Part shown: positions 6,435-34,995 of the stretch, one piece after another | Numbering within the stretch: the stretch's first letter is position 1 | How the letters are laid out: every line of letters begins with the position of its first letter | Source: Crossiella sp. CA-258035 | GTDB taxonomy: Bacteria > Actinomycetota > Actinomycetes > Mycobacteriales > Pseudonocardiaceae | NCBI RefSeq assembly: GCF_030064675.1 | Contig: NZ_CP116413.1 | Location: 1,149,001 to 1,213,000, forward strand | Direction of reading: 5' to 3' | DNA length: 64,000 nt | Position numbers and translations under genes: made by a program | The notes under the pieces: generated by a model | What the model was told of the DNA's origin: nothing | Databases searched by the model: none | What the model saw: the letters and a program-made list of their open reading frames with translations, nothing else

Positions 6435-6439
6435 CGACG

Positions 6440-6502: not shown

Positions 6503-6542
6503 CCCGCACCGCGGGCGAGTTACGAGGCGGGAGTTTGGGAGC

Positions 6543-10942: not shown

Positions 10943-10951
10943 CGATTGACT

Positions 10952-10990
10952 GGGGCGCATCCGACATTGGGTCGGGTGCGCCCCGTCTTT
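10952..10990 (+). terminator. Rho-independent terminator of the dpd operon
   Basis: GGGGCGCATCCGAC pairs with GTCGGGTGCGCCCC across a five-base loop (14 bp with one G-U), followed by GTCTTT. Confidence 0.85.
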
Positions 10991-11853
10991 CAGGGTCTAG
11001 CGATAGAGTCTGTCTCGATCTCTTCAATTGCTGCCGCCACTAAAGATGCCGTTCCATTTCTTGAGTACGATATTGGTGGCTCATCTGGCGGCCAGTTTAG
11101 CGGTGACTAGAACAGGTACGGGTGTCTGAGTTGAGCCTGCCCCGCTACGTTCGGCTCAATCATTTCGAGGTCGAGTGGAAATTCTGGCCTGCGGAACGGA
11201 TGCGTCTAACTGAATCCAGGACTCGGTAGGCTGGCCGCCGCTCTCTGGAACTGTCGACTAGTATCCACTGCCCCACGGTGAGTTCTCGCAACCGATGGAT
11301 ACCGAATGTCATCTGCCGCGCTGAACGGGTCGCGCTCGATGTTGACCAATATGTCCACGTGGGTGCTTGACTGGCCAGTTCGTGCTCTGGGCGGTTGTGG
11401 TGCAGATCGCGGCGACCGCATCGTAGTCTGGCCCCGGCCGCGCTAGGCGCGGGCGGCATGGGTTGCGCAAGCCCTCCAGGAAGAGCTCTCCCCTCAGCCG
11501 AACTGTCGGCGGAGAACGCCGACAAAGCCTCGTCGAAGTCAATCGCGTCAAGATCGACAGTTGCCTGGCGGAACGCATGGTCTATGCATCCAACCCCGAG
11601 TTGATCGACGTCTCACCGCCATCAAGAGTGATGTGCAGCAGTTGCCAAAGGAGTTCGCCTGTGCTCAGGGTGCATCTTCCAGGCTCAAAACGCACCACGC
11701 CGAGACGTCGCTCCAGGCCCGCTGCAGCCAATCGCTCCGCCGACAACGCCGCCGTCACATCACGAAGCAGGTGCGACAAGGCCGCAATCTGTGCAGGCCA
11801 AGGAAGAAGGGAGAGGATGGCCGGATTTTGATGATCATCCGGCCTCATCCTTG
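10991..11853. other. Decayed low-G+C region between the dpd operon and tRNA-Arg
   Basis: No intact gene is convincing. On the minus strand three successive frames each carry a protein-like piece: an 88-codon frame (11582-11848), then ATVDLDAIDFDEALSAFSA (about 11510-11570) and HVDILVNIERDPFSAADDI (about 11300-11360). They follow one another in order, as expected of one or more genes broken by frameshifts. A 44-codon plus-strand frame near 10976-11110 starts inside the terminator stem and is probably chance. The region abuts the 3' end of tRNA-Arg, a common integration target, and may be the remains of an integrative element. Confidence 0.4.
11582..11848 (-). pseudogene. Small hypothetical ORF, probably a gene remnant
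   Basis: An 88-codon frame from an ATG a few bases past the tRNA-Arg 3' end. The middle reads like a real helix (ALSHLLRDVTAALSAERL) and the end is ITLDGGETSINSGLDA. No ribosome-binding site, no domain recognised. An apparently continuous protein continues in another frame just downstream, so it is better read as the first part of a frameshifted gene than as a functional product. Confidence 0.25.
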
Positions 11854-21522: not shown

Positions 21523-21704
21523 GGTTCATCTCCTAGCGATGCAGGGGAAAAGAGCTGCCCCCAGCTAATCGCGCCGAGCCCGACACATCAACGGCCACGC
21601 ATATACCAATGCCCCCCAATCCTGGGGTTATGGCGCAAAGACAGGACCGTCGGCCCGGGTGAGTAGTCGTGACCGGTGCAGACCAATGGCGGGTTGCGGG
21701 TCAG

Positions 21705-22505
21705 TTAGGCGAGCACGCGGTAGTGGGTTTGGTAGACGGTCCGGAATCCGGCGTTGGCGTAGAGGAGAAGCGCCGCCGGGTTGTCGTCCATCACCTGGAG
21801 GTAGAGCTTGCTCGCGCCGTCGGCCCGGCCCCAGCGGGCGAGCGCGTGCAGGATCGCGCGGGCCGCGCCCCTGCGTTGCGCCGAGGGCAGGGTGGCCTGG
21901 CAGTAGATGCCCAGCCAGTCCTGTTCGCGCACGCCCAAGGCGATCGCGACCGGCTCGCCGTCCAGGCGAACCGAGGCGTAGGCGGTGGGCAGTGCGATGC
22001 GGCGCAGGATCCTGGCGCGAATGTCGGCGCTCTCCGGAGTGAGCCGGTCCGCGGACTCCTCGGCGTCCGCGCTTATTCTCGGCGACTCGGATCTGCAGTA
22101 GGCGCCGAACCATTCTTCGTCGATGACCGGGGTTATCCGCACTTCCGGCGCTGCGGGGGCGGCGGTGCGGTCGAGCACCTCGTCCACCTCGGCGGCTTGG
22201 ACCGCGGTAGGCCACTTCCACTGATAGCCGCGCCGGGCCAGCGCCTCATCAAGTTCTTCGGGCAAACCGGCTGGGGACAGCTGGAATGACGGCGGCAGGC
22301 CGCGTTCACCGTAGAACTTCTCGACCTGGGCGATCCGGGTGTCCAGGTCCAGCTCGCCGCTGAGCTCGTTCGGCCAGGCCGCGTTCGCCCGCCGGGTGAC
22401 CCCGGCGCCGTACCGGAGCCGCCAGCCGCCGAGCTCCTCGATGCTCAGCGCCGGCCACGCGTGGATCGCCAGCTCTTCCAGCAATCGTGCCGTCTCCAGG
22501 CTCAT
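21705..22505 (-). CDS. GNAT-family N-acetyltransferase
   Basis: 266 residues. The C-terminal half has the GNAT acetyl-CoA site (ATLPSAQRRGAARAILHALARWG, the R/Q-x-x-G-x-A type loop) and the closing KLYLQVMDDNPAALLLYANAGFRTVYQTHYR. The N-terminal half (ELAIHAWPALSIEELGGWRLRYGAGVTRRANAAWP) is the second, degenerate GNAT-like domain of the family that includes mycobacterial Rv-type two-domain acetyltransferases. The ATG at 22505 is preferred over a TTG twelve codons upstream. It is divergent from the biosynthetic cluster and probably not part of it; the substrate is unknown. Confidence 0.87.
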   Translation of the reverse strand: MSLETARLLEELAIHAWPALSIEELGGWRLRYGAGVTRRANAAWPNELSGELDLDTRIAQVEKFYGERGLPPSFQLSPAGLPEELDEALARRGYQWKWPTAVQAAEVDEVLDRTAAPAAPEVRITPVIDEEWFGAYCRSESPRISADAEESADRLTPESADIRARILRRIALPTAYASVRLDGEPVAIALGVREQDWLGIYCQATLPSAQRRGAARAILHALARWGRADGASKLYLQVMDDNPAALLLYANAGFRTVYQTHYRVLA

Positions 22506-22584
22506 TCCCGGAGTGTGCGTGCGGCCCGTTGGAGTGGTCAAACATTTGCCACTCCGGCCGGTCCGCTATTCACTGTGATCGGTG

Positions 22585-23943
22585 ATGACCAGCACTGTTC
22601 TCGTCAGCAAGCGGGGGCCTGCGGAGTTTCGGCTGAATGCGCGCACCGGCGCGGTCGAGCCGCGAAATCCGCACGGCGCGGCCACCGGTGTGGTCAGCGC
22701 GATGGCGCGGCGGCTGGGCGCCGGCGTGCCCTGGATCTCCAGCGCGACCAGTGACGGCGACCGGCAGTTGGCCCGTGAGCACCCCGGCGGGTTCGAGATG
22801 GCCATCGGCGACGGCCACACCAGGCTGCACCTGCTCGAGCACCGGGCCGAGGTGTTCGCCGCGGTGCAGGACCGGATGAGCAGCGGGCTGCTGTGGCAGG
22901 CGCTGCACGGGGTGTGGGACCGCTGGTCCGAGCCCACCTTCGACGAGGGCACCCGGCGGGACTGGGCGGCCATGGGCGAGTTCTGCCAGGACTACGCGGA
23001 CCGGATCGCCAGGGTCGTCGGCGGCGAGCCCGGCGCGCGGGTGGTGCTGCACGACTACCAGTTCACCGGGCTGCCGGCGCGGCTGCGCGCGGCGGTGCCG
23101 GGCGTGTCGATCTGCACGGTCATCCACGTCGCCTGGCCGGATCCCGGGCAGCTGCGGGTGCTGCCGCGGTACATGCGGGAGGAGATGATCCGCGGCCTGC
23201 TGAGCTCGGACCTGGTCGTGGTGCTGGCCGAGCGGTGGGCGCGCAACATCCTGGACTGCGCGCGGGAGTTCGGCGGCGCGGAGCTCGGCGGCCGGGTCGT
23301 GGTCCAGCCACTGGGCTACAGCCCGGACCTGTTGCGGCAGGCGGAGTTCCCGCCGGAGGACGCGCGGTGGGCGGCGGGGCGTCCGCTGGTCGTGCACTAC
23401 GGCCGGACCGATCCGATCAAGAACGCGCCCAGGGCGATCCAGGCCTTCCGGCTGGCCCTGGCCGGGGAGCCCCGGCTGCGGGAGAGCCGGTTGCTGGTGC
23501 GCGCCGCGCCGCACCACCTCGGGCACACCGCGAACCTGCGCTACCTGGAGCAGGTCGAGGCCGAGGCGGCGCTGACGAACAAGGAGCTGGGCGCGGAGGC
23601 GGTGCGGGTGGTCCAGGTCAACGACGTGGCGGCCACCTTCGGCGCCTACGCGCACGCGGACGTGCTGGTGGCCAACTCGGTGGTGGACGGCCAGAACGTC
23701 GGGCCGTTCGAGGCGGCCATGCTCAACGACCGGCTGCGGATCGTGCTCTCGGAGAACGCGGGCGCGGCCGAGGTGCTGGGCGAGCACGTGCTGGTGGTCA
23801 ACCCCTTCGACGTGGCCGAGCAGGCCGAGGCGCTGTGCCGGGGACTGCTCAGCGGCCCCTCGGCAGGGCTGCGTGCGGCCGTGGCGCCGCACACCTGGGA
23901 GTCCTGGGCCGACAGCGTGCTCGCACTGCTCGCGGAAAGGTGA
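22585..23943 (+). CDS. VldE/ValL-like GT20 (pseudo)glycosyltransferase
   Basis: 452 residues. Related to trehalose-6-phosphate synthase and closest by motif to VldE/ValL, which couple GDP-valienol to valiolamine 7-phosphate in validamycin biosynthesis without touching a glycosidic oxygen. Visible: VLVSKRGPAEF at the N-terminal loop, VWDRWSEPTF (111-120), HDYQF (D157), VIHVAWPDP (H181), the donor-binding Arg/Lys pair R274 and K279 in GRTDPIKN, VDGQNVGPFEA with D368 and E376, and SENAGAAEVLGE / VNPFDVAEQAEAL. Donor-site residues of OtsA are kept, so a nucleotide-activated sugar or cyclitol is the likely donor. An in-frame GTG lies one codon upstream. No Shine-Dalgarno is seen; the transcript may be leaderless. 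First gene of the proposed cluster, followed five bases later by an exporter. Confidence 0.88.
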   Translation: MTSTVLVSKRGPAEFRLNARTGAVEPRNPHGAATGVVSAMARRLGAGVPWISSATSDGDRQLAREHPGGFEMAIGDGHTRLHLLEHRAEVFAAVQDRMSSGLLWQALHGVWDRWSEPTFDEGTRRDWAAMGEFCQDYADRIARVVGGEPGARVVLHDYQFTGLPARLRAAVPGVSICTVIHVAWPDPGQLRVLPRYMREEMIRGLLSSDLVVVLAERWARNILDCAREFGGAELGGRVVVQPLGYSPDLLRQAEFPPEDARWAAGRPLVVHYGRTDPIKNAPRAIQAFRLALAGEPRLRESRLLVRAAPHHLGHTANLRYLEQVEAEAALTNKELGAEAVRVVQVNDVAATFGAYAHADVLVANSVVDGQNVGPFEAAMLNDRLRIVLSENAGAAEVLGEHVLVVNPFDVAEQAEALCRGLLSGPSAGLRAAVAPHTWESWADSVLALLAER

Positions 23944-23948
23944 GATCC

Positions 23949-25142
23949 ATGCGACAGGACATCCGCCGCCTGGCGCCGGTGTCGGCGTTCTTCGCCCTGA
24001 GCGGCTTCGCCCACGGCAGCTGGACGCCGCGGCTGCCGGGCATCGTGGAGCAGATCGGGGCCGACGTCGGCATCCTCGGCATCACGCTGACCGGGTCCAG
24101 CATCGGCATGATCATCGCGGCCTCGCTGGCCGGCCGGCTGTGCATGGCCTTCGGCGCGCGCCGGATGCTGGCGGCCAGCACGCTGCTGGTCTGCCTGACG
24201 CTGCCGCTGCTCGGCTCGGTCACCACGGTGGTGGCCTTCGGCATCGCGCTGGTCGTGCTCGGGCTCGGCATCGGCCTGCTCGACGTGGCGATGAACGTGG
24301 CCGCGGCCGCCATGGAACAGCGGCTCGACCGCCCGGTGATGTCGATCTTCCACGCGGCCCTGCCCATCGGCGGCGTGCTCGCCTCCCTGGCCGCCGCGCT
24401 GGCCGCCGGACTCAAGATCAGCCCGCAGGCGCACCTGCTGGTGGTGGGCGTGGTCGGCCTGGCCGCCACGCTGACCGCGCTGCGGGCCATCCCCAAGGAC
24501 CTCACCGGCCAGCCGAAGCAGGACGAGGCCGGGCGCACCGGCCGGGCGCCGTTCCGCCTGCCCGCGCTGTGGCTGCTGGCCGGGGTCGCGCTGTGCTCGG
24601 TGATCGCCGAGGGCACCGCGGGCAAGTGGTCCGCGCTGTTCCTGGTGGGCGACCGGGGCGTGTCCGAGGGCGCGGCCGCGCTGGCCTACACGGTCTTCGC
24701 CGCCTCGATGATGGTGGCCAGGCTGTTCGGCGAGCAGGTGCGCAACCGGTGGAGCGCGGCCCGGATCCTGGTCTGCACCAGCGTGGTCGGCGCCTTCGGC
24801 CTGCTGAGCGCGGTGCTGGTGCCCTCGGCCCTGGTCAGCTACCTGGGCTTCGCGCTCGCCGGAGTTGGCCTGGCCTACGCGTTCCCGGTGGCGCTGGCGA
24901 TGGCGGGCAAGGCGGGCCGGGACAACGGCGGCGACGGGGCGCGCGAGATCGGGTTCGTCACCACGGTGGCCTACTGCGGCTCCTTCGCCGGATCGCCGCT
25001 GGTCGGCGGCATCGCCCAGGTCAGCAGCCTGGCGGTGGCGTTCGTCGTGGTGGGACTGCTGGCCGCGCTGATCGGCCCGCTCGGGGCGTCGGCCCAGGCC
25101 GTGCTGGGGAAGAAGAAGCAGCCTGAGCCGACCGCCCGCTAG
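23949..25142 (+). CDS. MFS transporter (YbjJ-like), probable product exporter
   Basis: 397 residues with 12 predicted membrane segments. Begins LAPVSAFFALSGFAHGSWTPRLPG, typical of the YbjJ/FucP-like subgroup, with the MFS loop LAGRLCMAFGARRML between TM2 and TM3 and IFHAALPIGGVLASL in TM5. Coupled to the glycosyltransferase (five-base gap, GGAAAGG before ATG). Placement suggests export of the pathway product or import of a sugar precursor. Ends in a four-base convergent overlap with the dehydrogenase gene. Lys/Pro-rich hydrophilic C-terminal tail. Confidence 0.85.
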   Translation: MRQDIRRLAPVSAFFALSGFAHGSWTPRLPGIVEQIGADVGILGITLTGSSIGMIIAASLAGRLCMAFGARRMLAASTLLVCLTLPLLGSVTTVVAFGIALVVLGLGIGLLDVAMNVAAAAMEQRLDRPVMSIFHAALPIGGVLASLAAALAAGLKISPQAHLLVVGVVGLAATLTALRAIPKDLTGQPKQDEAGRTGRAPFRLPALWLLAGVALCSVIAEGTAGKWSALFLVGDRGVSEGAAALAYTVFAASMMVARLFGEQVRNRWSAARILVCTSVVGAFGLLSAVLVPSALVSYLGFALAGVGLAYAFPVALAMAGKAGRDNGGDGAREIGFVTTVAYCGSFAGSPLVGGIAQVSSLAVAFVVVGLLAALIGPLGASAQAVLGKKKQPEPTAR

Positions 25143-26134
25143 GGCGCGAAGGCGAGCTTGCCCGCGCCGTAACCGCTGCCGGGTCCCAGCGCGAGCAGCT
25201 CGAAGGCCGCGCTGGACTCGGTGAGTGGGAAGACGTCGGTGACCAGCTGCTCGCAGGGCAGGCCGCGGATCAGCTCGATCGCGGCCGGGAACACCTGCGC
25301 GTGGTAGTCGCAGCTGCCGATCAGGCTGACGCAGCGGCCGGTCAGGTCGAAGGGCCGGACCGTGGCGGTGGCCGCGGTGTCGCAGCCCAGCAGCAGCACC
25401 CGCCCGCCGTCCTGCACCGTGCGCAGGCTCGGCTCCAGCAGCGAGCCGGTGGTGTCCACCACGACCGTCGGCGGCGGGGAGGCTGACTCGTCGAGCTCGG
25501 CCAGCGGGGTCAGGCCGGTGACCGCCTCGGCCAGCTCGCGCCGGTACGGGTCGGGCTCGACCAGGCTGACCCGCGCCGCCCAGCGGACCGCGAGCAGGGC
25601 GGAGAGCACGCCCATCGGGCCGCCGCCGAGCACGACCACCCGGTCGTCAGGGCCGACCGCGGCCGCGCGCAGCCCGGTCAGCACGCAGGCCAGCGGCTCG
25701 ATCAGCACGCCACGCCGGTCCGGCACGTCGGCCGGCAGCGGGTAGAGCGCCTGCTCCTCGACGGTGAGCAGCTGGGCGAAGGCGCCGTCCCGGCCGACGC
25801 CGATCTCCAGCGCCGACTTGTTCGCGCAGTGGCTGCTCTCCGCGCGCAGGCACCGGTCGCAGCGGCCGCAGGACTGGGTCGGATCCAGCACCACCCGGTC
25901 GCCGGGCCGCAGCCTGGTCACCCCTTCGCCGACCTCGGTCACCACGCCGACCGCCTCGTGCCCGAGCACCCTGGGCGGCTCGCAGTGGTAGCGGCCGAGG
26001 TAGATCGCCCGGTCGGTGCCGCAGACCCCGGCCAGCGTGGGCCGGAAGGTCACCTGGCCCGGTCCGGGCGCGGGCGGGGCGGCCCGCTGTTCCAGCGTCA
26101 GCTCACCGGGTCCGCGGAACTGAAGGACATGCAT
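25139..26134 (-). CDS. Zinc-dependent medium-chain alcohol/sugar dehydrogenase
   Basis: 331 residues. MDR family: catalytic-zinc Cys in GVCGTDRAIYLG, GHEAVGVVTEVGEGV, the structural-zinc CGRCDRCLRAESSHC, and the NAD-binding VVVLGGGPMGVLSALLA. Closest in type to threonine, sorbitol or glucose dehydrogenases. Oxidation of a polyol or aminopolyol hydroxyl fits its place next to an aminotransferase; in azasugar clusters an MDR enzyme (GutB1 type) oxidises the aminated hexitol before ring closure. ATG at 26134 is 14 bases after the aminotransferase stop, so the two genes are co-transcribed. Confidence 0.92.
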   Translation of the reverse strand: MHVLQFRGPGELTLEQRAAPPAPGPGQVTFRPTLAGVCGTDRAIYLGRYHCEPPRVLGHEAVGVVTEVGEGVTRLRPGDRVVLDPTQSCGRCDRCLRAESSHCANKSALEIGVGRDGAFAQLLTVEEQALYPLPADVPDRRGVLIEPLACVLTGLRAAAVGPDDRVVVLGGGPMGVLSALLAVRWAARVSLVEPDPYRRELAEAVTGLTPLAELDESASPPPTVVVDTTGSLLEPSLRTVQDGGRVLLLGCDTAATATVRPFDLTGRCVSLIGSCDYHAQVFPAAIELIRGLPCEQLVTDVFPLTESSAAFELLALGPGSGYGAGKLAFAP

Positions 26135-26148
26135 GTTGTCCGTGCCTT

Positions 26149-27414
26149 TCAGAGTGAGGTGAGGACGCGGTCCAGCCGGTCGCAGATGAGGTCCGCCTCC
26201 TCGTGGGTCAGGATCAGCGGCGGGCGGATCTTCACCACGTTGCCGAGGCCGTACCGCGAGGAACGCAACAGCAGGCCGTGTTCCCGGCCTTTCCGGACGA
26301 TCTCGTTGGTCAGCGCGGGCGAAGGCGTGCCGTCCCGGTCGACCACTTCGAAACCGATCATCAGGCCGACGCCGCGAATGTCGTCGACACACCGGTGCCG
26401 ATTCCGGAGCTCGGTCAGCCTGCACAGGATGTGTGCGCCGACCTCGCGCACATTCGCCAGGAAATCCTCGTCGTCCACCACGCTCAGGGTGGCGTTGGCC
26501 GCCGCGGCGGCGAGCACGTTCGCGCCGGAGGTGAAGGAGAGGTATTCGGTCTCCATCGGCCCCAGTTTCGGATCGGAGAGCATCGCGGCGACCTGCGCGC
26601 CACCGCCGAGACCCTTGCCAATGGTGATGACATCCGGCTGCACGCCGAAGTGCTCGGCGGCGAACATCCGGCCGGTCCGGCCGATGCCGGTCTGGATCTC
26701 GTCGAAGATGAGCACGATGTCGCGCTCATCGCAGAACTCGCGCAGGCGGGCGAGATAACCGTCCGGCGCGACCACGTTGCCGCCGTTGCCGGTGATCGGC
26801 TCGACGATGACCGCGGCGACACTGCCGGAGCTGGCGAACTCGATGAAGTCGTCGATCCGGTTCACGCACATCAGGCCGCAGGTCTCCCGCCGCTGCCCGT
26901 AGAAACAGCGGTGGCAGTACGGGTCCGGCACGATCAGCCTGCTGATCCCCACCTCCGGGAAGGGCGCGCGGCGGAAGGCGTTGCCGGAGATCGCGGTGGT
27001 GGCCATGGTCTGGCCGTGGTGGCCGCGGAACAGGCTGATGATGTCCCGGCGGCCGGTGGCCCGCTGGGCCAGTTTGATCGCGCCCTCATTGGCATCCGAG
27101 CCGCTGGCCACTTTCAGGTGCACGCGCTGGATGTTCTCCGGCGACACCGAGACGAGTTTGCGCACCAGCTCGTTCACCGGGTGGTTCTGGAACGACGAGG
27201 ACGCGTGCACCAGCAGCTCGGCCTGGTGCTGAATCGCCTTGACCAGTGCGGGATGGCGATAACCGATGCTCAGGTTGAAAGTTCCGGCGGCGCAGTCGAG
27301 GTATTTGTTCCCCTCGGCGTCGCAGGCGTAAACACCCTCCCCGTCGACGATGGTGACCGTTCCGACGCTGTAGGAGTACAACTCCCTGACGTCGCCCACC
27401 AGATTGGTAGCCAT
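26149..27414 (-). CDS. Class III PLP-dependent aminotransferase
   Basis: 421 residues. Fold-type I, subgroup II: GSDANEGAIKLAQRATGR, VEPITGNGGN, PLP Asp D238 in IFDEIQTGIGRTGRM and Schiff-base Lys K267 in TIGKGLGGG. A Cys-rich insertion (C167, C170, C179, C183) resembles that of several AGXT2/GabT-like enzymes. GabT1-type members aminate ketose phosphates in azasugar pathways, and class III enzymes aminate cyclitol or sugar ketones in aminoglycosides. AGAGGAGG six bases before ATG. Upstream 67 bases separate it from the HAD gene, room for an internal promoter. Confidence 0.92.
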   Translation of the reverse strand: MATNLVGDVRELYSYSVGTVTIVDGEGVYACDAEGNKYLDCAAGTFNLSIGYRHPALVKAIQHQAELLVHASSSFQNHPVNELVRKLVSVSPENIQRVHLKVASGSDANEGAIKLAQRATGRRDIISLFRGHHGQTMATTAISGNAFRRAPFPEVGISRLIVPDPYCHRCFYGQRRETCGLMCVNRIDDFIEFASSGSVAAVIVEPITGNGGNVVAPDGYLARLREFCDERDIVLIFDEIQTGIGRTGRMFAAEHFGVQPDVITIGKGLGGGAQVAAMLSDPKLGPMETEYLSFTSGANVLAAAAANATLSVVDDEDFLANVREVGAHILCRLTELRNRHRCVDDIRGVGLMIGFEVVDRDGTPSPALTNEIVRKGREHGLLLRSSRYGLGNVVKIRPPLILTHEEADLICDRLDRVLTSL

Positions 27415-27481
27415 CGAACCTCCTCTTGGCTGACAGAGGAAATTCTATGGACGGGTAAGAGTGGTTGCGAACAAAGGAAAT

Positions 27482-28141
27482 TCAGCGCAAACCGAGGAGT
27501 CGGGGCAGCTCGCGCATGTCCTCGAACTCAATGGTGCGCTCGCCGGTCAGCGCGCCCGGCGGCACCAGTTCAGTGCGGTAGCCGAGCACCGTCATACCGG
27601 CCGCCCGTCCGGCGGCGACACCGGCCGGGCTGTCCTCGACCACGGCGCAGCGGTCCGGCGGCACGCCCATCTTCCTGGCGGCGTGCAGGAAGAGGTCGGG
27701 CGCCGGTTTGCCGTGCTCGACCTCCACCGCGCTGAAGATCCGGCCGTCGAAGCGGTCGGCCAGCCCGGTGATGCCCAGCGTGGTGGCCATCTTCTCCGGG
27801 GTGCCGCTGGAGGCCACGCAGGTCGGCACACCCGCGGCGGCGATCGCGTCCAGTGCCGCCACCACGCCGGGGACCGCGGTGAGGTCGCGGCGGAACCGGT
27901 CCCGGTAGCGCTCGTGCAGCCCGGCCAGCCAGTCCGCGCCCAGCGCCCGGCCCACCTGGCGCTCGATCTCGGCCAGCATGTGCTCATCCGACTTGCCCAG
28001 GAACCGGCCGGCCACCTCCGCCGGCGTCAGCGGCCACCCGGTCTGGGTGATCAGCTCCGCCTCGACCTGGACGCAGAGCCGCTCGCTGTCCACCAGCACG
28101 CCGTCGCAGTCGAAGATCACCAGGTCGAAGTGGCCGTTCAC
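27482..28141 (-). CDS. HAD-IA phosphatase / beta-phosphoglucomutase-like
   Basis: 219 residues. HAD motifs: nucleophile pair in FDCDGVLVDSE (10-18), motif II in VASSGTPEK, motif III Lys in EVEHGKPAPDLF and motif IV in VVEDSPAGVAAG. The cap domain is the small four-helix type. Such proteins dephosphorylate sugar phosphates or isomerise hexose phosphates; in a cluster with a kinase, a transketolase and an aminotransferase a sugar- or cyclitol-phosphate phosphatase is most likely. GTG start overlaps the transketolase stop by four bases (GTGA). Confidence 0.9.
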   Translation of the reverse strand: MNGHFDLVIFDCDGVLVDSERLCVQVEAELITQTGWPLTPAEVAGRFLGKSDEHMLAEIERQVGRALGADWLAGLHERYRDRFRRDLTAVPGVVAALDAIAAAGVPTCVASSGTPEKMATTLGITGLADRFDGRIFSAVEVEHGKPAPDLFLHAARKMGVPPDRCAVVEDSPAGVAAGRAAGMTVLGYRTELVPPGALTGERTIEFEDMRELPRLLGLR

Positions 28142-30009
28142 CGGTCCAGGTCACCGCCTCGAAGTAGGTCGCGGGCCGCGGCCGCGATGTGCCCGGCCGA
28201 GATCCCGGCCAGGTCGAGCTGTTCGGCAGGCGAGGCGGAACCGGGCATGGTCCGCACCGCCAGGTGCCGGGCACGATACGTGATCTCCTGCTCCGCCAGC
28301 CCCTCGAATATGGCGGCACCGAGCCCGCCTTCCGGCCGGTGGTCCTCGGCGACCACCAGCCGTCCGCCGGTGGCGGCCAGCGCCAGCCGGACCGTGGCCG
28401 TGTCGCAGGGCTTCACCGAGTAGAGGTCCAGCACCCTGGCGTGGATCCCTTGCGCGGCAAGGGTGTCCGCCGCCTCCAGCGCCTCGTGCACGGTCACCCC
28501 GGCGGCCGCGAGCACCACCGAGTCCCGCTCGTCCGAGCGCGGCGTCTTGGCACCGCCCACCGGGAACTGCTCCTCGGGGCCGTACAGCACCGGCCGGGCG
28601 TTGCGGGTGATCCGCAGGTAGCAGATGCCGCCGGTGTCCAGCGCGGCTTTGGTCAGCGCCCCCGCGGAGACCGCCTCGCTGGGGTAGAGCACCACCGAGC
28701 CGTGGATGGCGCGCATCGCGGCCAGGTCCTCCAGCGCCATCTGGCTGGGGCCGTCCCGGCCGATCTCCACCCCGCCGTGCGAACCGGCCAGCACCAGCCG
28801 CGACCGCGAGATCGCGGCCATCCGGACGAAGTCGTAGCCCCGGCTCAGGAACGCGCCGTAGGTGGAGACCACCGGGGTGAAACCGCGCGCGGACAGGCCG
28901 ACCGCGGTGCCCAGCATCTGCTGCTCGGCGATGTAGGTCTCGATGAACCGGCCGGGGTGCCGGGCGGCGAACCGGTCGGTGCGCATGGACACCGTCACGT
29001 CGCCGTCGATCACCACCACCTCCGGGCGCTCGCCCAGCTCGGCCAGCGCGTCCCCGAAGGCGTCCCGGATGGCGACCGCCGCGCCGACGGCGTAACGGGG
29101 GAGGCGCACCTCGGTCCGGGCGGGCGGCGGTTGCGCGGGCTTGCGCGGGGGCGGCGGTCCGGTCAGCCGCACTCGTTCCGGCGGTTCGATCAGGGCCAGC
29201 GCGCGGCGGGCGGTGGCCTCGTCCAGGGCCGCGCCGTGCATCTCGGCGCGGTGGGTGATCTCCTCGAAGCCCTGCCCCTTCACCGTGCGCGCGACGATGG
29301 CCAGCGGCTCGGCGTTCGTGCCTGCTTGGGCGAGTGCGGCGTCCACCTGGTCGAGGTCGTGGCCGTCGATCTCGGCGACCTGCCAGCCGAAGGCGCGCAG
29401 CCGGGCCGCGTAGGTCTCGGCCGGGCTCCGGTGCGGCACCGGCCCGGACTGGCCGTAGCCGTTCACGTCGATGATCGCGGTCAGGTTGGCCAGCCGGTGG
29501 ATCGCGGCCTTGTCGAATGCCTCCCACATCGAGCCCTCGGCCAGTTCGCCGTCCCCGCACAGCACCCACACCCGGTACGGGCGGCGGGCCAGCCGCGCGG
29601 CCAGCGCCATGCCGACCCCGATCGGCAGTCCCTGACCGAGCGAGCCGGTGGCCACGTCCACCCACGGCAGGTCGGGCGTCGGGTGGCCCTGCAACCGGGA
29701 ACCGCGCTGGCGGTAGGTGGACAGCTCCTCGACCTCGATCGCGCCCGCCGCGGCCAGCACCGAGTACCAGAGCCCGGAGACGTGTCCCTTGGACAGGACC
29801 AGGCGGTCGTTGTCCGGGTGCGCGGGATCGGCCCAGTCGTAGCGGAAGTGGCGGCTCATCAGCGTGGCGACCACATCGGCGCAGGACATCGCCGAGGTGG
29901 GGTGCCCCGATCCGGCCGCGGTGCTGGTGCGGATCGCGTCCGCGCGGAGCTGGTCGGCGAGCCGGCGCAGCTGGGTCTTGGTCACCTCGCTGCCTGCGAG
30001 CTCGGTCAT
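28138..30009 (-). CDS. Transketolase (single chain)
   Basis: 623 residues, N- and C-terminal halves in one polypeptide. The TPP domain has GSGHPTSAMSCADVV, HPDNDRLVLSKGHVSG, TGSLGQGLPIGVGMA and GDGELAEGSMWEAFDKA...NVNGYGQ-type Mg/TPP site. The Pyr domain has VVVIDGDVTVSM, FIETYIAEQQMLGTAVGLSARG and SHGGVEIGRDGPSQMALEDLA. A C-terminal Rossmann-like domain ends the chain. It makes or consumes ketose phosphates such as sedoheptulose 7-phosphate, the feedstock of C7-cyclitol cyclases, or builds a branched or extended carbon chain. GGGAGGAG precedes the ATG, which overlaps the kinase stop (ATGA). Slightly shorter than housekeeping actinobacterial transketolases, as expected for a pathway paralogue. 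Confidence 0.93.
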   Translation of the reverse strand: MTELAGSEVTKTQLRRLADQLRADAIRTSTAAGSGHPTSAMSCADVVATLMSRHFRYDWADPAHPDNDRLVLSKGHVSGLWYSVLAAAGAIEVEELSTYRQRGSRLQGHPTPDLPWVDVATGSLGQGLPIGVGMALAARLARRPYRVWVLCGDGELAEGSMWEAFDKAAIHRLANLTAIIDVNGYGQSGPVPHRSPAETYAARLRAFGWQVAEIDGHDLDQVDAALAQAGTNAEPLAIVARTVKGQGFEEITHRAEMHGAALDEATARRALALIEPPERVRLTGPPPPRKPAQPPPARTEVRLPRYAVGAAVAIRDAFGDALAELGERPEVVVIDGDVTVSMRTDRFAARHPGRFIETYIAEQQMLGTAVGLSARGFTPVVSTYGAFLSRGYDFVRMAAISRSRLVLAGSHGGVEIGRDGPSQMALEDLAAMRAIHGSVVLYPSEAVSAGALTKAALDTGGICYLRITRNARPVLYGPEEQFPVGGAKTPRSDERDSVVLAAAGVTVHEALEAADTLAAQGIHARVLDLYSVKPCDTATVRLALAATGGRLVVAEDHRPEGGLGAAIFEGLAEQEITYRARHLAVRTMPGSASPAEQLDLAGISAGHIAAAARDLLRGGDLDR

Positions 30010-30941
30010 CTCGGGTCTCCTCCCTCGGCCAGGCCGAGCAGTGGCCCGCACCGCCTCGCGATCTCCGGTCCCGGCGCGCGCGGACCGACGTGCTCACAGG
30101 TCGCCGCACCAGCGACCGCACCCGCCGTGGCGGCCTTCGCTGGAGCGAGTCCGGCGATCCGGGCGGCCACGTAGGCGCCGTGGAAGGCATCGCCCGCACC
30201 GGTGGAGTCGATCACCTTGGCCGCAGCCGCAGGCACCCGGTCGACCCGACCGTCCGCGTCGGCGACCACCGAGCCGCGCGCGCCGAGGGTCACCACCACG
30301 ACCTCGGGGCCGCCGGCCAGCAGCTTGCGCGCGGCGTCCTCGGCCACCTCGGTGCCGGCGAACCGGACGGCCACGTGTTCGGGCACGATCAGCTCGTCGA
30401 TGTCGGCCAGCGCGGCGCCGAGCCAGTCGGCGTCCTCGACGTCGGCGAAGGTGCGCACCCCGAGTCCCTTGGCGGCTTCGAGGCCGTACCGGCTGAACTC
30501 GGCCTCCCTGCCGTCGGAGAAGAAGGCGCCGCAGCGGCGCAGCAGGCTCGGCGGCAGCTGGGTGTGGTCCGGGGTCAGCGCCGGGTCCTTCTGGGTCACG
30601 ATGGTCCGTTCGCCATTTCCGTCCACCACCACCGCGGCGAAATGGTGGTCGGCGCCCGGCACCAGAATCGAGCCCTCGACCGCGCAGCCGTGGTCGAGCA
30701 GGAAACGGCGGTGCTGTTCGCCGTCGGGATCCGCGCCAAAACGGCCAACGAAGTTGGTGCGCAGGCCCAGCACGCTCATCACCAGGCAGGCGTTGGTCGC
30801 TTCCCCGCCGACCGCCCTGGCCAGCTCGTGCGCCACCTGCTTGTGGCCGGGGCTGAGCGCTTCGCCGATGCGCAGGGTGTAGTCGATCGTGGCATTTCCG
30901 ACGACCACCACGTCGTAGCGCGTTTCCGGTGGACTCGTCAT
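30006..30941 (-). CDS. PfkB-family (ribokinase-like) sugar or cyclitol kinase
   Basis: 311 residues. N-terminal VVVVGNATIDYTLRIGE and VGGEATNACLVMSVLGLRTNFVGRFGAD; C-terminal signature VIDSTGAGDAFHGAYVA with the catalytic Asp and anion hole. ATP-dependent phosphorylation of a ketose, nucleoside or cyclitol. As first gene of the kinase-transketolase-phosphatase operon it likely primes the substrate. The ATG at 30941 is chosen; a GTG three codons upstream is equally near to an AGGG. The region to the divergent deoxyribosyltransferase-like gene (30942-31006) is short and must hold both promoters. Confidence 0.9.
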   Translation of the reverse strand: MTSPPETRYDVVVVGNATIDYTLRIGEALSPGHKQVAHELARAVGGEATNACLVMSVLGLRTNFVGRFGADPDGEQHRRFLLDHGCAVEGSILVPGADHHFAAVVVDGNGERTIVTQKDPALTPDHTQLPPSLLRRCGAFFSDGREAEFSRYGLEAAKGLGVRTFADVEDADWLGAALADIDELIVPEHVAVRFAGTEVAEDAARKLLAGGPEVVVVTLGARGSVVADADGRVDRVPAAAAKVIDSTGAGDAFHGAYVAARIAGLAPAKAATAGAVAGAATCEHVGPRAPGPEIARRCGPLLGLAEGGDPR

Positions 30942-31006
30942 GGAAAGCACCCTGCCGGAGCAGGCGGAGAGCGCGCAAACACGTCGATTCGCCTTACGCT
31001 CGCCGG

Positions 31007-31465
31007 GTGCGCGTCCTCCATTGCCCCGATCCCGTCGAGTCGGTCACCAGCGGCCCGCGCCTGTTCCTGGCCGGTCCGTCACCGCGGAACTCCACCGCGT
31101 CCTGGCGCGATGAGGCCTGCGCCCATCTGCGCAAAGTCCAGTTCACCGGAGTGGTGCTGCACCCGCAGTCCCGGCCGGGCGAACCGGCCGTTCCGGTCGA
31201 GGTGCAGTTGCGCTGGGACTGGCTGGCCGGCGCGCACGCCGACGCGATCGTGTTCTGGATTCCCCGGGTCATGCCGGAACTGCCCGGCCTGACCTCCAAT
31301 TTCGAGTTCGGCCTCTGGGCCCGTTCCGGCAAGGCCGTGCTGGGCGCGCCGCCGGAAGCCGCCGAGATGGCCTATCTCCGCGGCACCGCCGAGCTGTTCG
31401 GCGTGCCCCAGGCCGACACCCTGCCGGACGCACTCGACCAGGCGCTCTTGGTGCTCGCCGCCTAA
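31007..31465 (+). CDS. Nucleoside 2-deoxyribosyltransferase-like protein
   Basis: 152 residues. The opening PRLFLAGPSPRNSTASWRDEA (G-PS region) and AHADAIVFWIPR...GLTSNFEFGLWARSGKAVLGAP match the Nuc_deoxyri_tr2-type fold (PF15891), in which the conserved Glu of SNFEFG is the nucleophile. Solitary members occur near nucleoside or sugar clusters and phages, often of unknown substrate. The GTG lies about ten bases after a TACGCT -10-like element, suggesting a leaderless transcript. Divergent from the PfkB gene, overlapping the convergent phosphotransferase gene by four bases. Confidence 0.82.
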   Translation: MRVLHCPDPVESVTSGPRLFLAGPSPRNSTASWRDEACAHLRKVQFTGVVLHPQSRPGEPAVPVEVQLRWDWLAGAHADAIVFWIPRVMPELPGLTSNFEFGLWARSGKAVLGAPPEAAEMAYLRGTAELFGVPQADTLPDALDQALLVLAA

Positions 31466-32229
31466 TCCGCGAGCCGGTTCGCTTCGAGATAGGCGATATC
31501 CCGTTCGTAGAGCAGGTGGTGGCCGAGCTCGAACACCCGCTGTTGCGCCGGATCACCATTCCGAGCCCGGCCCACGATGAACTCGACCATTTCCCGAAGT
31601 CGCCGGACGGCCGTCGCGGCCACCGCACCGGGCGTGATCTCAGCCATTCCGTAGGCCGCCACGAACAACGCCAGCCGCCTGCGCTGTTCCGCGAGACCTG
31701 GATAGGGCACATCGGGATTTTCCGGGTCGGTCAGCGGCACGAACCGGTAGGCCGTGTACGCCAGGTCCCACACCCGCGGACCGGGGGAGATGGTGTCGAA
31801 GTCGATGACCCCGGTAAGCCGGTCTCCCTCGAACATCAGGTTGTACGGGGCGAAATCGTTGTGGCACAGCACTTCCACCGGTTCGTGCGCGGGCAGCTGC
31901 CAGACCGCGCCTTCCGGTGGCCGGAAGTCGACGGTGGCCTCGTGGTAGTCGCGCAGCAGTTCCGCGACCGCGATGAGGGTGCGGTCGCTGAGCACGTGCG
32001 CGGGCAGCGGGTAGTGCGCCACCGCGCCGGGCAGCAGGCTGATGACCTCCCGGCCCTGCTCATCCAGGCCCAATGCCTCCGGCGCGCGGTCGAAGCCGCG
32101 CCGGCGCAGGTGGTCGAGCAGCGCGTGCACCGAGGGTGTCCACGGCCCGGCGGTCCGCCGGACCGTGTCACCCACTTTCACCACGCTGGTCATGTTGCCG
32201 CCGGTCAGGATTTCTTCCACGAGCGCCAC
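31462..32229 (-). CDS. Aminoglycoside-phosphotransferase-family kinase
   Basis: 255 residues. APH-fold: glycine loop near VEEILTGGNMTSVVKVGDTVRR, catalytic loop VLCHNDFAPYNLM (HxDxxxxN) and metal Asp in GVIDFDTISPGPRVWDLAY. Members include self-resistance kinases and small-molecule kinases. Downstream of a StrR-type activator, a resistance or pathway kinase role is plausible, though broad-family homologues are common in actinomycete genomes. Start uncertain: GTG at 32229 (six bases after the regulator stop) or GTG at 32220; homologues begin near VEEILTGGN. Likely co-transcribed with the StrR-type gene. Confidence 0.83.
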   Translation of the reverse strand: MALVEEILTGGNMTSVVKVGDTVRRTAGPWTPSVHALLDHLRRRGFDRAPEALGLDEQGREVISLLPGAVAHYPLPAHVLSDRTLIAVAELLRDYHEATVDFRPPEGAVWQLPAHEPVEVLCHNDFAPYNLMFEGDRLTGVIDFDTISPGPRVWDLAYTAYRFVPLTDPENPDVPYPGLAEQRRRLALFVAAYGMAEITPGAVAATAVRRLREMVEFIVGRARNGDPAQQRVFELGHHLLYERDIAYLEANRLAD

Positions 32230-32234
32230 CCTAA

Positions 32235-33209
32235 CTATTCTTCCGGCGGGGTCTCCAGCCGACGGTTGATCTCCTTCCACGCCTCCGCGTAGTACTGGGC
32301 GAGTTTGGCCACCGGATCGGAACAATGCGCGGGCAGGCCGTCGATCGCGCCGTAGAGGCTGTGCAGCGCACCGGCTTGCAGGTGAATCCAGCGCAGCAGT
32401 GTCCGGCCCGAACTGGTCAGCCGCAAACTCGGATCGCTGTTCATGCTCTGCACGATCGCCCCGATCCGCGCCAGCCGCGAAGAATCCTCCTCCGCCGCCA
32501 CGACCGCCGGTCCAGCAGGCTTGCGCCGGGCGACCGGATCCTCACCCCGGTTCAGCCGCATCCGCACATCGCGCGCGGTGGACAGCGAAATCCCGGCCTC
32601 CTTGGCGATCTGCCGCAACGAGGCATCCGGGTTGTCCCGGACAAACCGGGAGGCGCGAATCCGGCCGGCCGCCGGACTGATCGGCCGGACCCGGCCGTCC
32701 GCGCCGATCCGGGTGTTCGACTGCGCAATTCCGGGATTCGAACGGGCCCGGATCGTGGCCACCGTGCGCGGTGACAGTCCGGTGGTGCCGCCGACCACCC
32801 GATCCGACCATTCCGGGGTGGCCGCGATGATCCGTTCCGCCGCGGCCCGCCGATCGGCCAGGGTCAGCGGCAGGCCGTGCATGGTGTTGAGCCGCACGGC
32901 CAGCACAAATGCCTCCGCTTCACTGCCTTCGAAGAATTCCGCCTCGATCTCGGTCCGCCGCAACAGGATCGCGGCCCGCACCCGGTGCACGCCGTCGATC
33001 ACCCGCAGGGACGGCCAGTGCACCAGAATCGGCGGCAGCGCGGCAGCTGAACCGGCCAGTTTCGCCACGTGCTCCGCATCGGCCCCGGCCGAACGCGGCG
33101 AATCCCGCAAGCTCAGACTGCTGATCGGCACGATCCGAGTGCGGCCGCCATCCCGGACCGGACTCGTCAAATGTTCCGCTCGCTCCAGTTGCCGGACGTC
33201 GTCCTGCAC
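32235..33209 (-). CDS. StrR-type ParB-like pathway-specific activator
   Basis: 324 residues. StrR-family layout: an N-terminal ParB-like domain (VPISSLSLRDSPRSAGADAE, ILVHWPSLRVIDGVHRVRAA, EGSEAEAFVLAVRLNTMHGL), the invariant RPISPAAGRIRASRFV segment, then the DNA-binding helix-turn-helix (LRQIAKEAGISLSTARDVRMRL). Relatives StrR, KasT, NovG and Tei15 activate aminoglycoside, aminocoumarin and glycopeptide clusters. This is the best single argument that the adjacent genes form a secondary-metabolite cluster. GTG start with GGGGAGG nine bases upstream. No classical StrR palindrome was spotted by eye in the promoter regions. Confidence 0.92.
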   Translation of the reverse strand: MQDDVRQLERAEHLTSPVRDGGRTRIVPISSLSLRDSPRSAGADAEHVAKLAGSAAALPPILVHWPSLRVIDGVHRVRAAILLRRTEIEAEFFEGSEAEAFVLAVRLNTMHGLPLTLADRRAAAERIIAATPEWSDRVVGGTTGLSPRTVATIRARSNPGIAQSNTRIGADGRVRPISPAAGRIRASRFVRDNPDASLRQIAKEAGISLSTARDVRMRLNRGEDPVARRKPAGPAVVAAEEDSSRLARIGAIVQSMNSDPSLRLTSSGRTLLRWIHLQAGALHSLYGAIDGLPAHCSDPVAKLAQYYAEAWKEINRRLETPPEE

Positions 33210-33346
33210 GTAGACCGCCTCCCCAGCGCCGTCTCGTGTGGCCTAACCGCTAGCAGAAAGAACGTTTGCGCGACAGCCCCAAGTGCATCCCCAGTTCTGA
33301 TCTCCCCAACGGAGCCGGTCCGAAACCGAACCGTGATAAGAACCAG

Positions 33347-33375
33347 ACGTAACCTACCCGCCGGGCCACTGTCAA
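33347..33375 (-). promoter_or_regulatory. Promoter of the StrR-type gene
   Basis: TTGACA (33370-33375) and TTACGT (33347-33352), 17 bases apart, minus strand, in a locally A+T-rich stretch, giving a leader of roughly 130 bases before the GTG at 33209. Confidence 0.5.
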
Positions 33376-33486
33376 GACTGGTTACGGTGATCGGGTTTGG
33401 CCGAGATCAGCAACGAATGGCCGGTATCCAGCGGGTTTCGCGTGTGCGTGAATTCAGTCCGGCACGGCATTCGCGACACCGGACAA

Positions 33487-34260
33487 CTAAGCCGCACCCC
33501 GGATGACCTCCACCAGACTCGCGAAGCTCGCCGAGCCGAAGCCAGCGGCGACACCCCGCGCGGTCAGCGACTCCACCAGCCGCGGCAACGCCGAATCCAG
33601 CCCGCGCTCCTCGCTGGCCCGCACCAGGTTCGCCATCAGCGGCCAGTCCAGCTCCAGCCAGTCCTGCTCGCCCGGATACGCACCGTGATCCACCTGTTCT
33701 GCGTAGTCGGCGACAACTTCGGAGACGGTGCCGCGCAGCCACCGGGTGAGCATCGGCGTCACCGCGCTGGCCCGCACCCCGTCCGCGGTGAGCAGCGCGG
33801 CGGTGTGCAGGTAGCCGACGAGCGTGGCCCAGGCGAAGTTCAGCAGCGCGATGTCGTAGAGGGCCGCCGTGCCGGGGTCCGCGCCGAGGTAGGTCGCGTT
33901 GCCCAGCCGGTCCAGCACCGCCCGGTGCCGCTCGAACACCGCCGCGTCCCCGCTGTAGACCAGCTCCGTCTCCGGTCGGCCCACGTGCTCGGGATGCGCC
34001 ATCAGCGCCCCGTCGAGGTACCGCCCGCCCCTGGCCGCCACCCGAGCCGCGGTCTCCCGGGCCTCCGCGCTGGTGCCCGAGGTGAGGTTGACCAGGTCCC
34101 GCCCACCAAGATCCCGCGCCAGCAACGACCACAGCTCGTCGTGGTCCGCCGCGCACAACACCACCAGCGCCGCATCGAAGGAGTCCCCGGCCACCACCCC
34201 CAACGCCCCGGCCAGCCCGGTCCCACGGGCATTGACCCCCACCACCGCAACCTGCTCCAC
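33487..34260 (-). CDS. Imine-reductase-like NAD(P)-binding protein with shortened Rossmann part
   Basis: 257 residues, shorter than the usual 290. The C-terminal helical domain is typical of imine reductases/beta-hydroxyacid dehydrogenases (ALYDIALLNFAWATLVGYLHTAALL, DWLELDWPLMANLVRASEERG), and the middle has LVNLTSGTSAEARETAARVAARGGRYLDGALMAHPEH. The N terminus VAVVGVNARGTGLAGALGVVAG lacks the standard GLGxMG and runs directly into FDAALVVLCAADHDE, so about 30 residues of the nucleotide fold are missing. It may be inactive or a non-redox derivative. GTG start with GGAGGACGC upstream. Divergent from a TetR gene. Confidence 0.78.
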   Translation of the reverse strand: MEQVAVVGVNARGTGLAGALGVVAGDSFDAALVVLCAADHDELWSLLARDLGGRDLVNLTSGTSAEARETAARVAARGGRYLDGALMAHPEHVGRPETELVYSGDAAVFERHRAVLDRLGNATYLGADPGTAALYDIALLNFAWATLVGYLHTAALLTADGVRASAVTPMLTRWLRGTVSEVVADYAEQVDHGAYPGEQDWLELDWPLMANLVRASEERGLDSALPRLVESLTARGVAAGFGSASFASLVEVIRGAA

Positions 34261-34271
34261 GCGTCCTCCAA

Positions 34272-34302
34272 CCTACAAAACATAACCTACGTTCTGTAGG
34301 AT
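34272..34302 (+). promoter_or_regulatory. Autoregulatory operator and -10 of the TetR gene
   Basis: CCTAC-GTTCT-GTAGG (34286-34300) is a perfect inverted repeat, and a further CCTACA (34272-34277) is a direct copy of its left arm. TAGGAT (34297-34302) is a good -10 placed so that transcription would begin at the ATG (34309), a leaderless mRNA. It lies between divergent genes, so one repressor site could control both. Confidence 0.55.
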
Positions 34303-34308
34303 AAGCAC

Positions 34309-34995
34309 ATGGCAGACCAACGCCTCAACCGCCAGGACCGCCGCAGGCAACTCCTGGACACCGCCACCGAGATCATCGCCACCGAGGGCGCCGCCGCCCT
34401 GACCCTGGTCCGCCTCGCCGAACGCGCCCGCGTCTCCCGCCCCGTCGCCTACGACCACTTCACCACCAGAGAAGGCCTGCTCCTGGCCCTGTACCGGGAC
34501 TACGACGAGCAGCTGAGCGAGGCCATGCGCACGGCAAGGGCCCGGGCGGGCTCACTCCACCAGGTGGCCACCGCGGTCGTCACGGCCTACGTCGACGGCC
34601 TGCTCGCCGCGGGCCCGGAATGCGCGGAGATCAAAGCGGCCCTCTCCGGCCACCCGGAAACCCGCCACTTCCGCCACCAGTCGGAGCAGTTGTACCGGGA
34701 TGAGCTCCGCGCCGCCTTCCGCCCCTTCGCCCCAGCCACCCCGCCAGTCATCACCGGCCTGTTCCACGCCCTGGACGGCCTGGCCACCGCGGCGGCCGAG
34801 GGCAGGACGACCCGGGCCAAGGCGGTAACGGCGGCGGTCACCATCGTGGTCAGCACGCTGCGCGCGGCAGGTCAGGGCGGCGGCAGCTCCACCAGAACCT
34901 CCGCCACGCCATCGAGCAGCTCGGGCGCGGGTCGCCCGGACAGCGGCTCCGCCTCGGCGACCACCACCAGCTTCCCGTCCCGCCGCGAGTCGTAG
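34309..34995 (+). CDS. TetR/AcrR-family regulator
   Basis: 228 residues. N-terminal helix-turn-helix RRQLLDTATEIIATEGAAALTLVRLAERARVSRPVAYDHFTTREGLLLAL. The ligand domain ends near VTIVVSTLRAAGQ; the last 35 residues are low-complexity Ser/Thr-rich and are read antisense to the next gene, so the natural stop has probably been lost by read-through. No SD is visible; leaderless start. Probably represses the divergent imine-reductase-like gene. Confidence 0.9.
   Translation: MADQRLNRQDRRRQLLDTATEIIATEGAAALTLVRLAERARVSRPVAYDHFTTREGLLLALYRDYDEQLSEAMRTARARAGSLHQVATAVVTAYVDGLLAAGPECAEIKAALSGHPETRHFRHQSEQLYRDELRAAFRPFAPATPPVITGLFHALDGLATAAAEGRTTRAKAVTAAVTIVVSTLRAAGQGGGSSTRTSATPSSSSGAGRPDSGSASATTTSFPSRRES

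Follow-up and report, generated by a model that had tools for sequence, protein, structure and literature searches.

Described systems and the Crossiella locus

Azasugars and validamycin-type pseudo-sugars represent two bacterial routes to glycosidase or trehalase inhibitors, and the two have been treated as separate. A 2021 survey by Beal and Horenstein (PMC8382821), in the sections drawn on here, defines the azasugar signature as an aminotransferase with a characteristic motif, a phosphatase (IMPase or HAD) and a dehydrogenase. According to these sections, the aminotransferases act on ketose phosphates, and the phosphate is removed before ring closure, freeing a masked hydroxyl for oxidation; ValM is placed as a relative only, outside the azasugar pathway, and ValN is just 23% similar to GutB1. 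For the validamycin-type enzyme VldE, the relevant parts of PMC3441724 report that it couples an amine to its donor, that R326 contacts the acceptor phosphate and N325 touches the phosphorylated acceptor, and that OtsA Arg9, the counterpart of VldE R12, is credited with acceptor-phosphate recognition. Here we describe a locus of Crossiella sp. CA-258035 in which an azasugar-type trio lies beside a VldE-type GT20 glycosyltransferase, a transketolase and a PfkB-family kinase. The window, that is, the whole stretch analyzed, comprises 64,000 nucleotides (positions 1149001–1213000 of a 9.17 Mb single-contig genome).

Judged from comparisons of genes and genomes, the locus is probably dedicated to making a glycosylated azasugar; of this reading, the azasugar part is well supported. 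If true, it would reveal a natural route to glycosylated azasugars, provide a residue-level hypothesis for an acceptor change in a GT20 enzyme, and suggest that azasugar chain length can be controlled by a cluster's own transketolase and kinase. It would also predict a sugar-enzyme inhibitor of a new type, the original prediction having named a glycosidase or trehalase inhibitor as the likely product.

An azasugar-type aminotransferase, dehydrogenase and phosphatase

The motif SGNxFRxxxFP...LxVPxPYCxRC was found in the window aminotransferase and in that of Crossiella sp. SN42, a second genome of the same species. Its FP-to-L spacing is 6, versus 8 in the printed consensus, and is also 6 in the relatives L172 and L173. 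The strict motif occurred in none of the 43 aminotransferases encoded beside VldE-like GT20s outside Crossiella (41 full length and two fragments, duplicate contigs included), and we regard it as a suggestive, not a required, mark of azasugar enzymes. The window aminotransferase is 45–55% identical to the full-length members of this group. In the aminotransferase tree, from which 11 of 54 matches were left out as duplicates or fragments, 33 rows from VldE-like GT20 loci formed one clade (100/100), with the window enzyme outside it.

Aminotransferase matches at 1e-95 were present in 17 of 249 genomes of the family, its own included. The closest among these outside the species were two at 62–63% identity, the remainder reaching 49–55%. 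Both nearest relatives lie in azasugar-type loci with a Zn-dehydrogenase, a HAD gene nearby and an MFS gene in one, and the third gene in these two trios was read as an inositol-phosphatase relative. A class sample of 394 genomes added nine aminotransferase places in seven genomes (eight at 57–62%, one at 46%).

The dehydrogenase scored 238 and 225 bits against azasugar-cluster dehydrogenases and 177 bits against a Paenibacillus polymyxa gene annotated gutB1, versus 45–64 bits in the six of seven C7-cyclitol loci that gave a match. A tree of 29 sequences placed it with the azasugar dehydrogenases (100/100). The HAD protein showed 37% identity (103 bits) to a HAD protein annotated beside gutB1 on a P. 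polymyxa plasmid (L174) and a weak match (52 bits) to an Erwinia azasugar-type phosphatase, and it had no match in any of the seven C7-cyclitol loci. The original prediction for this DNA named a dehydrogenase–aminotransferase–phosphatase trio of the azasugar kind, and this much is borne out by the motif in the aminotransferase, by the scores and tree position of the dehydrogenase, and by HAD matches in two of five azasugar-type loci.

A separate observation concerns locus L189 (9213–10748, genome G571), where an azasugar-type aminotransferase (62%) has no phosphatase or dehydrogenase match nearby; by eye, its surroundings hold an ABC transporter and other biosynthesis genes.

A VldE-type GT20 lacking the acceptor-phosphate arginine

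The five best PDB matches of the GT20 were VldE/ValL or unnamed-glycosyltransferase entries, from 4.7e-87 (VldE) to 1.3e-85, and the next match after the VldE/ValL group was the trehalose-phosphate synthase 5lqd (1.1e-41), presumably Streptomyces OtsA. In a tree of 46 sequences, which left out 10 loci as duplicates or fragments and 13 of 29 deep GT20s, the enzyme fell within the VldE superclade (100/100) and outside the main C7-cyclitol VldE clade (96/91). Its neighbors, at weak support (83/58), were three Streptomyces enzymes and one from a Streptosporangiaceae metagenome-assembled genome (L058); the L058 locus has a cyclase match, yet its GT20 also lies outside the main C7-cyclitol clade. 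The family loci L019–L032 entered neither the tree nor the residue table under these numbers, most of their contigs being included under others, and the residue table also excludes L004 and L055. No GT20 match was found on plasmids at 1e-40. The original prediction had proposed phylogenetic comparison with OtsA as a check. The genome's own OtsA-like gene (genome positions 428702–430087) lies on the opposite side of the tree, and an OtsA paralogue was rejected on the strength of this tree.

Comparison with VldE demonstrated that the core donor-site residues are conserved in the window GT20, as are the equivalents of R12, D158, Y159, H182, R290, K295, R321, D362 and T366 and those of D383, G384, Q385, N386 and E391. 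Five positions changed: N323 to Ala, L387 to Val, S388 to Gly, and the acceptor contacts N325 and R326 both to His (H310/H311). The position of R326 is Arg in 66 of 67 other GT20s, the exception being a broken fragment, and His was found only in the two Crossiella copies. Because the trio phosphate leaves before ring closure, a GT20 acting after the trio must accept an unphosphorylated acceptor. The loss of the acceptor-phosphate arginine fits an azasugar route, since the trio would deliver an acceptor without that phosphate, and this tie is, in our view, the strongest inference of the analysis.

Another kind of VldE-superclade cluster, the third encountered, was seen in Streptomyces zingiberis, S. 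cyaneochromogenes and S. physcomitrii (L065, L066 and L069; ~7.5–17 kb). These loci share a GT20, an MFS gene, a nucleotidyltransferase and a gene read by eye as an amidohydrolase, with no aminotransferase or cyclase match; their GT20s have His at the N325 position and conserve R326.

Transketolase and PfkB-family kinase

The nearest solved structures to the transketolase were short transketolases of the 4kxu group (7e-148), 4kxu being, as we take it, human transketolase. The window enzyme conserves the residues aligned to R318, S345, H416, Q428 and R474, which we take to be substrate contacts of the human enzyme, and it should therefore handle phosphorylated sugars. Homologues at 49–57% identity occur as single genes in 29 of 119 other genomes searched. 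Twenty transketolase neighborhoods (six genes on each side, match limit 1e-8) contained no PfkB, HAD or azasugar-type aminotransferase match and were unrelated to the window unit, and a catabolic transketolase/PfkB/HAD operon was rejected on these grounds.

Fructose 6-phosphate needs no dedicated enzyme. Since azasugar aminotransferases use ketose phosphates, PfkB and transketolase presumably supply a different one. In genome G830, genes 36% (PfkB), 36% (dehydrogenase) and 46% (aminotransferase) identical to those of the window lie near one another (L194, 2235–10584), and a kinase near an azasugar-like aminotransferase supports the role of PfkB; the other genes there were read by eye as asparagine synthetase and inositol-phosphatase relatives. 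L194 is, in its own right, another azasugar-like variant with a kinase.

C7-cyclitol loci and the aminocyclitol proposal

Thirteen other family loci with a similar GT20 (41–45%) resemble C7-cyclitol clusters. The one annotated in full, L023, encodes a dehydroquinate (DHQ)-synthase-like cyclase, a kinase-like/isomerase-like fusion, a nucleotidyltransferase, an RmlD-like reductase, GT20, aminotransferase, dehydrogenase, HAD and MFS proteins. Pfam and NCBIfam names were taken from L023 and from three genes of L020 and L029, the remaining loci being matched to L023 by BLAST. A cyclase was called in nine of the thirteen, L025 (also numbered L055) adding a tenth by tblastn, and none was found in the stretch read of L029–L031, which belong to one genus. 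A scan of 84,980 species with exact peptide patterns, on contigs of at least 3 kb, yielded 39 VldE-like GT20 loci. The fetched DNA gave a cyclase match in 30 of the 39, not including that of SN42, and a transketolase in one, SN42 itself; this gene make-up occurred only in Crossiella's.

Nothing recognizable as a cyclase, cyclitol kinase or nucleotidyltransferase turned up in the window unit. A genome-wide search at 1e-10 gave a single DHQ-synthase-like gene. Each of the five Crossiella genomes searched has a counterpart, and we take the gene as AroB because it is similarly close to one in each of the four others. VldE-type pseudoglycosyltransferases use a GDP-valienol donor and form a non-glycosidic C–N bond; apart from the AroB-like gene, the search gave no cyclitol cyclase. 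The aminocyclitol product and the joining of cyclitol units put forward in the original prediction are thus not upheld. A validamycin-type reading was likewise rejected: the genome search gave no second cyclase, and neither the dehydrogenase nor the HAD suits it.

A discrete unit in Crossiella

Synteny with two other Crossiella genomes (G185 and G187) is lost at window 21705–21706 and returns at 33497, and with a third (G186) it is lost at 21694 and returns at 35861 (blastn pieces >250 bases). The left flank, and the right flank further on, are present in all three. Between the break points, G187 carries a different gene of 316 codons and G185 ~1.5 kb without a window match, and no GT20 match was found in any of these three genomes. 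The borders of the unit, including the GNAT gene, were set by these break points, giving ~11.8 kb with intact genes. SN42 (G188) carries the complete unit, and the ratios of nonsynonymous to synonymous substitution rates between the window and SN42 are 0–0.33 for 11 of 11 unit genes. Being together in SN42 and jointly missing from the site in three other Crossiella, the genes behave as a dedicated cluster and are not scattered in relatives, in agreement with the original prediction.

Every gene named in that prediction was found at or very near its given position (Table 1). Its extent (22585–33209) encloses the named genes and stops short of the GNAT gene, which the variable unit also takes in; its gene list omitted this gene and the nucleoside-deoxyribosyltransferase-like one.

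On the minus strand the order is PfkB, transketolase, HAD, aminotransferase and dehydrogenase, with 4-base overlaps between PfkB and transketolase and between transketolase and HAD, and gaps of 67 bases after HAD and 14 after the aminotransferase. GT20 and MFS lie on the plus strand, the MFS and dehydrogenase genes overlapping tail to tail by 4 bases. A search of six gaps of the locus for inverted repeats revealed nothing convincing.

Table 1. Features of the Crossiella unit (window coordinates)
Feature	Position	Strand	Basis
Whole variable unit (cluster)	~21706–33490		synteny breaks; not at site in 3 other Crossiella genomes
GNAT acetyltransferase, Rv0428c-like	21705–22505	-	Pfam PF24553 1.2e-24, PF00583 1.6e-12; synteny ends 21694–21706
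GT20 glycosyltransferase, VldE superclade; acceptor-phosphate residues now H310/H311	22585–23943	+	tree, residue table
MFS transporter, presumed exporter	23949–25142	+	PF07690 4.1e-25
Zn-dependent dehydrogenase, GutB1 (aminopolyol dehydrogenase) group	25139–26134	-	bit scores, tree
Class III aminotransferase, azasugar (GabT1) type, motif SGNAFRRAPFPEVGISRLIVPDPYCHRC	26149–27414	-	motif from PMC8382821 (sections drawn on)
HAD phosphatase, like Paenibacillus azasugar-trio phosphatase	27482–28141	-	PF00702 4.2e-30; 37% to L174 HAD
Transketolase, short type	28138–30009	-	NF004559 832 bits vs cut-off 488
PfkB-family sugar kinase; opens the PfkB–transketolase–HAD–aminotransferase–dehydrogenase run	30006–30941	-	PF00294 8.9e-36
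Nucleoside 2-deoxyribosyltransferase-like protein	31007–31465	+	PF15891 4.7e-11
APH-type phosphotransferase	31462–32223	-	PF01636 2.9e-18
ParB/StrR-like regulator, presumed pathway activator	32235–33209	-	PHROG ParB-like 1.9e-5; weak HTH matches
StrR-type palindrome GTTCGACTG-N11-GATTCGAAC	32715–32743	.	within regulator gene; 0 mismatches to GTTCGA-N17-TCGAAC

Regulator and flanking genes

The regulator matched helix-turn-helix (HTH) profiles of Pfam and a ParB-like PHROG profile, in each case weakly. The StrR target is printed as GTTCGACTG-N11-CAGTCGAAC in the part of PMC8406272 drawn on here. Its outer half-sites have one exact match in the window, and such exact sites number four in the 9.17 Mb genome and none in the reversed control; only the exact site was used. 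Because it sits inside the regulator's own gene, the function of this palindrome is uncertain. These weak matches and the palindrome lend no more than indirect support to the StrR-type activator of the original prediction. The APH-type gene is presumed to serve tailoring or self-protection, and the GNAT gene possibly does the same.

A reductive-aminase-like (imine-reductase-like) gene at 33487–34260 directly adjoins the unit. It was rejected as a member, lying beyond the break and having a counterpart in two of the three other Crossiella, and it falls outside the unit together with a TetR-like gene, the pair spanning 33487–34995. An enzyme of this kind could carry out the reduction of a cyclic imine to a 1-deoxyazasugar, for which no gene had been identified in bacterial azasugar pathways as of PMC8382821, in the sections drawn on here. 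Elsewhere in the window, positions 3963–10942 hold FolE2, QueD, a radical-SAM (QueE-like) gene, QueC and two DndB-like genes at a G+C content of 59–65%, versus ~70–72% around them, and this stretch looks like a 7-deazaguanine DNA-modification island.

Proposed pathway and alternative explanations

From the kinship of the trio and the GT20, the loss of the acceptor-phosphate arginine and the unit borders, each read directly from sequence, we infer a pathway with its substrates, order of steps, donor, bond type, product and activity; the roles given to PfkB, transketolase, MFS, GNAT, APH and the regulator are likewise presumed. PfkB would phosphorylate a sugar, and transketolase would set the chain length, yielding a ketose phosphate. 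The class III aminotransferase would place an amino group on its keto carbon, and the HAD phosphatase would take off the terminal phosphate. The Zn-dehydrogenase would then oxidize the freed hydroxyl, allowing the amine to close onto the carbonyl and form the azasugar. The GT20 would add a hexose, probably from a GDP-sugar, to the unphosphorylated azasugar, resulting in a pseudo-disaccharide. The MFS protein would export the product, the StrR-like protein would turn the cluster on, and the GNAT and APH proteins would modify the product or protect the cell. A bolder version, which we offer only tentatively, is a new pseudo-disaccharide class. Here a VldE-type enzyme that no longer requires phosphate on its acceptor would attach a hexose to an azasugar, and the cluster transketolase would determine the chain length of that azasugar (e.g., seven carbons, from sedoheptulose 7-phosphate). 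The product would be a trehalose mimic with a ring nitrogen, merging azasugar and validamycin logics.

Several observations weigh against the glycosylated-azasugar reading. In the aminotransferase tree, the branching of the window enzyme relative to azasugar and C7-cyclitol enzymes did not resolve, and a topology with the window enzyme inside the C7-cyclitol set was not rejected (p-AU, approximately unbiased test, 0.057). The strict motif occurred in just 6 of the 14 azasugar-type loci scanned, one of them a 3.2 kb fragment. The dehydrogenase tree lacked a third group to serve as outgroup, and a different query was used to collect each of its two sets. The HAD protein had no match in three of five azasugar-type loci. 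In the GT20, R12 is conserved, and some acceptor-phosphate binding may persist through it; the donor may also differ from that of VldE, given that N323, a guanine contact, is replaced by Ala and L387/S388 by Val/Gly. None of the 14 azasugar-type loci had a GT20 or transketolase match in the fetched stretches, so that no precedent links these genes to the trio. The StrR-type pattern, at up to three mismatches, occurred 49 times in the window versus 21 expected, with just 16 of these within the unit.

The GT20 could instead couple a hexose to an open-chain aminopolyol or to the amine nitrogen, yielding an N-glycosylated aminopolyol or an imine-bridged pseudo-disaccharide and not an azasugar O-glycoside. 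Such coupling would be in keeping with the joining of amine to donor by VldE (PMC3441724, in the part drawn on here), with the superclade of the GT20 and with an aminotransferase product that is an amine; a blocked nitrogen would, however, hinder the very ring closure that a GutB1-type dehydrogenase serves, and we consider this outcome rather unlikely. An inositol-derived aminocyclitol glycoside, in which the Zn-dehydrogenase oxidizes inositol, the aminotransferase yields an inosamine and the GT20 glycosylates it, appears improbable. Its acceptor would likewise be without phosphate, and the dehydrogenase has scyllo-inosose 3-dehydrogenase as its second-best match in NCBIfam, at 132 bits, far under the cut-off of 450. 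The dehydrogenase nevertheless groups with GutB1-type enzymes (in a tree that held no inositol dehydrogenase), the aminotransferase carries the azasugar motif, and transketolase, PfkB and HAD would have no evident role.

Transketolase, PfkB, HAD and MFS genes occur in catabolic operons, and the MFS protein could be an importer, so an island for sugar salvage, carrying a paralogue of trehalose synthase and making no secondary metabolite, also deserves consideration. We judge it quite improbable in view of the azasugar-type aminotransferase, the StrR-like regulator with its StrR-type palindrome, the APH and GNAT genes, and a GT20 placed apart from OtsA. A validamycin-type C7 aminocyclitol cluster with lost or outsourced genes is very improbable and largely refuted. 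The superclade of the GT20, the identity of the aminotransferase to those beside VldE-like GT20s and its unrejected placement among them speak for it; against it stand the absence from the unit of any cyclase, kinase or nucleotidyltransferase detected, the single AroB-like gene with its Crossiella counterparts, a dehydrogenase that scores far higher with the azasugar type, a HAD protein matched in 0 of 7 C7-cyclitol loci, and the cyclase match that most VldE-like loci have and SN42's lacks.

Comparison with known systems

A Streptomyces sp. NBC_00715 plasmid (L175) resembles the Crossiella unit in that it encodes an aminotransferase (42%) and a dehydrogenase (34%) of azasugar-like kind together with two genes of glycosyltransferase type. 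Here, at 5277–11418, the aminotransferase and dehydrogenase lie between a glycogen/starch synthase, an epimerase and a glycosyltransferase gene, and the locus is possibly an independent glycosylated-azasugar cluster. It differs in that the two genes carry glycogen/starch synthase and glycosyltransferase annotations, the stretch lists neither a transketolase nor a phosphatase, and the strict motif was not found. OtsA, the trehalose-6-phosphate synthase, shares with the window GT20 the family and the donor-site catalytic and phosphate-contact positions, but the Crossiella enzyme belongs to a separate clade.

Validamycin/validoxylamine-type C7 clusters (VldE/ValL, ValM) have in common with the Crossiella unit the superclade of the GT20, a class III aminotransferase related to that of the window, and an MFS gene. 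Unlike them, the Crossiella unit yielded no cyclase, cyclitol kinase, nucleotidyltransferase or RmlD-like reductase, and unlike VldE/ValL its GT20 lacks the acceptor-phosphate arginine. With the azasugar three-gene cluster (gabT1-yktC1-gutB1, or the aminotransferase–dehydrogenase–HAD form of P. polymyxa) it shares the aminotransferase type and motif, a GutB1-type dehydrogenase, a HAD gene and an MFS neighbor; it differs in its order, HAD–aminotransferase–dehydrogenase, and in adding a VldE-type GT20, transketolase, PfkB, APH, GNAT and a StrR-like regulator. No report combining an azasugar trio with a VldE-type GT20 was found among titles and abstract beginnings of the open-access literature, which does not show that none exists. 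Against the systems compared here, the addition of a VldE-type GT20 and of a dedicated transketolase and kinase to an azasugar trio is a new combination.

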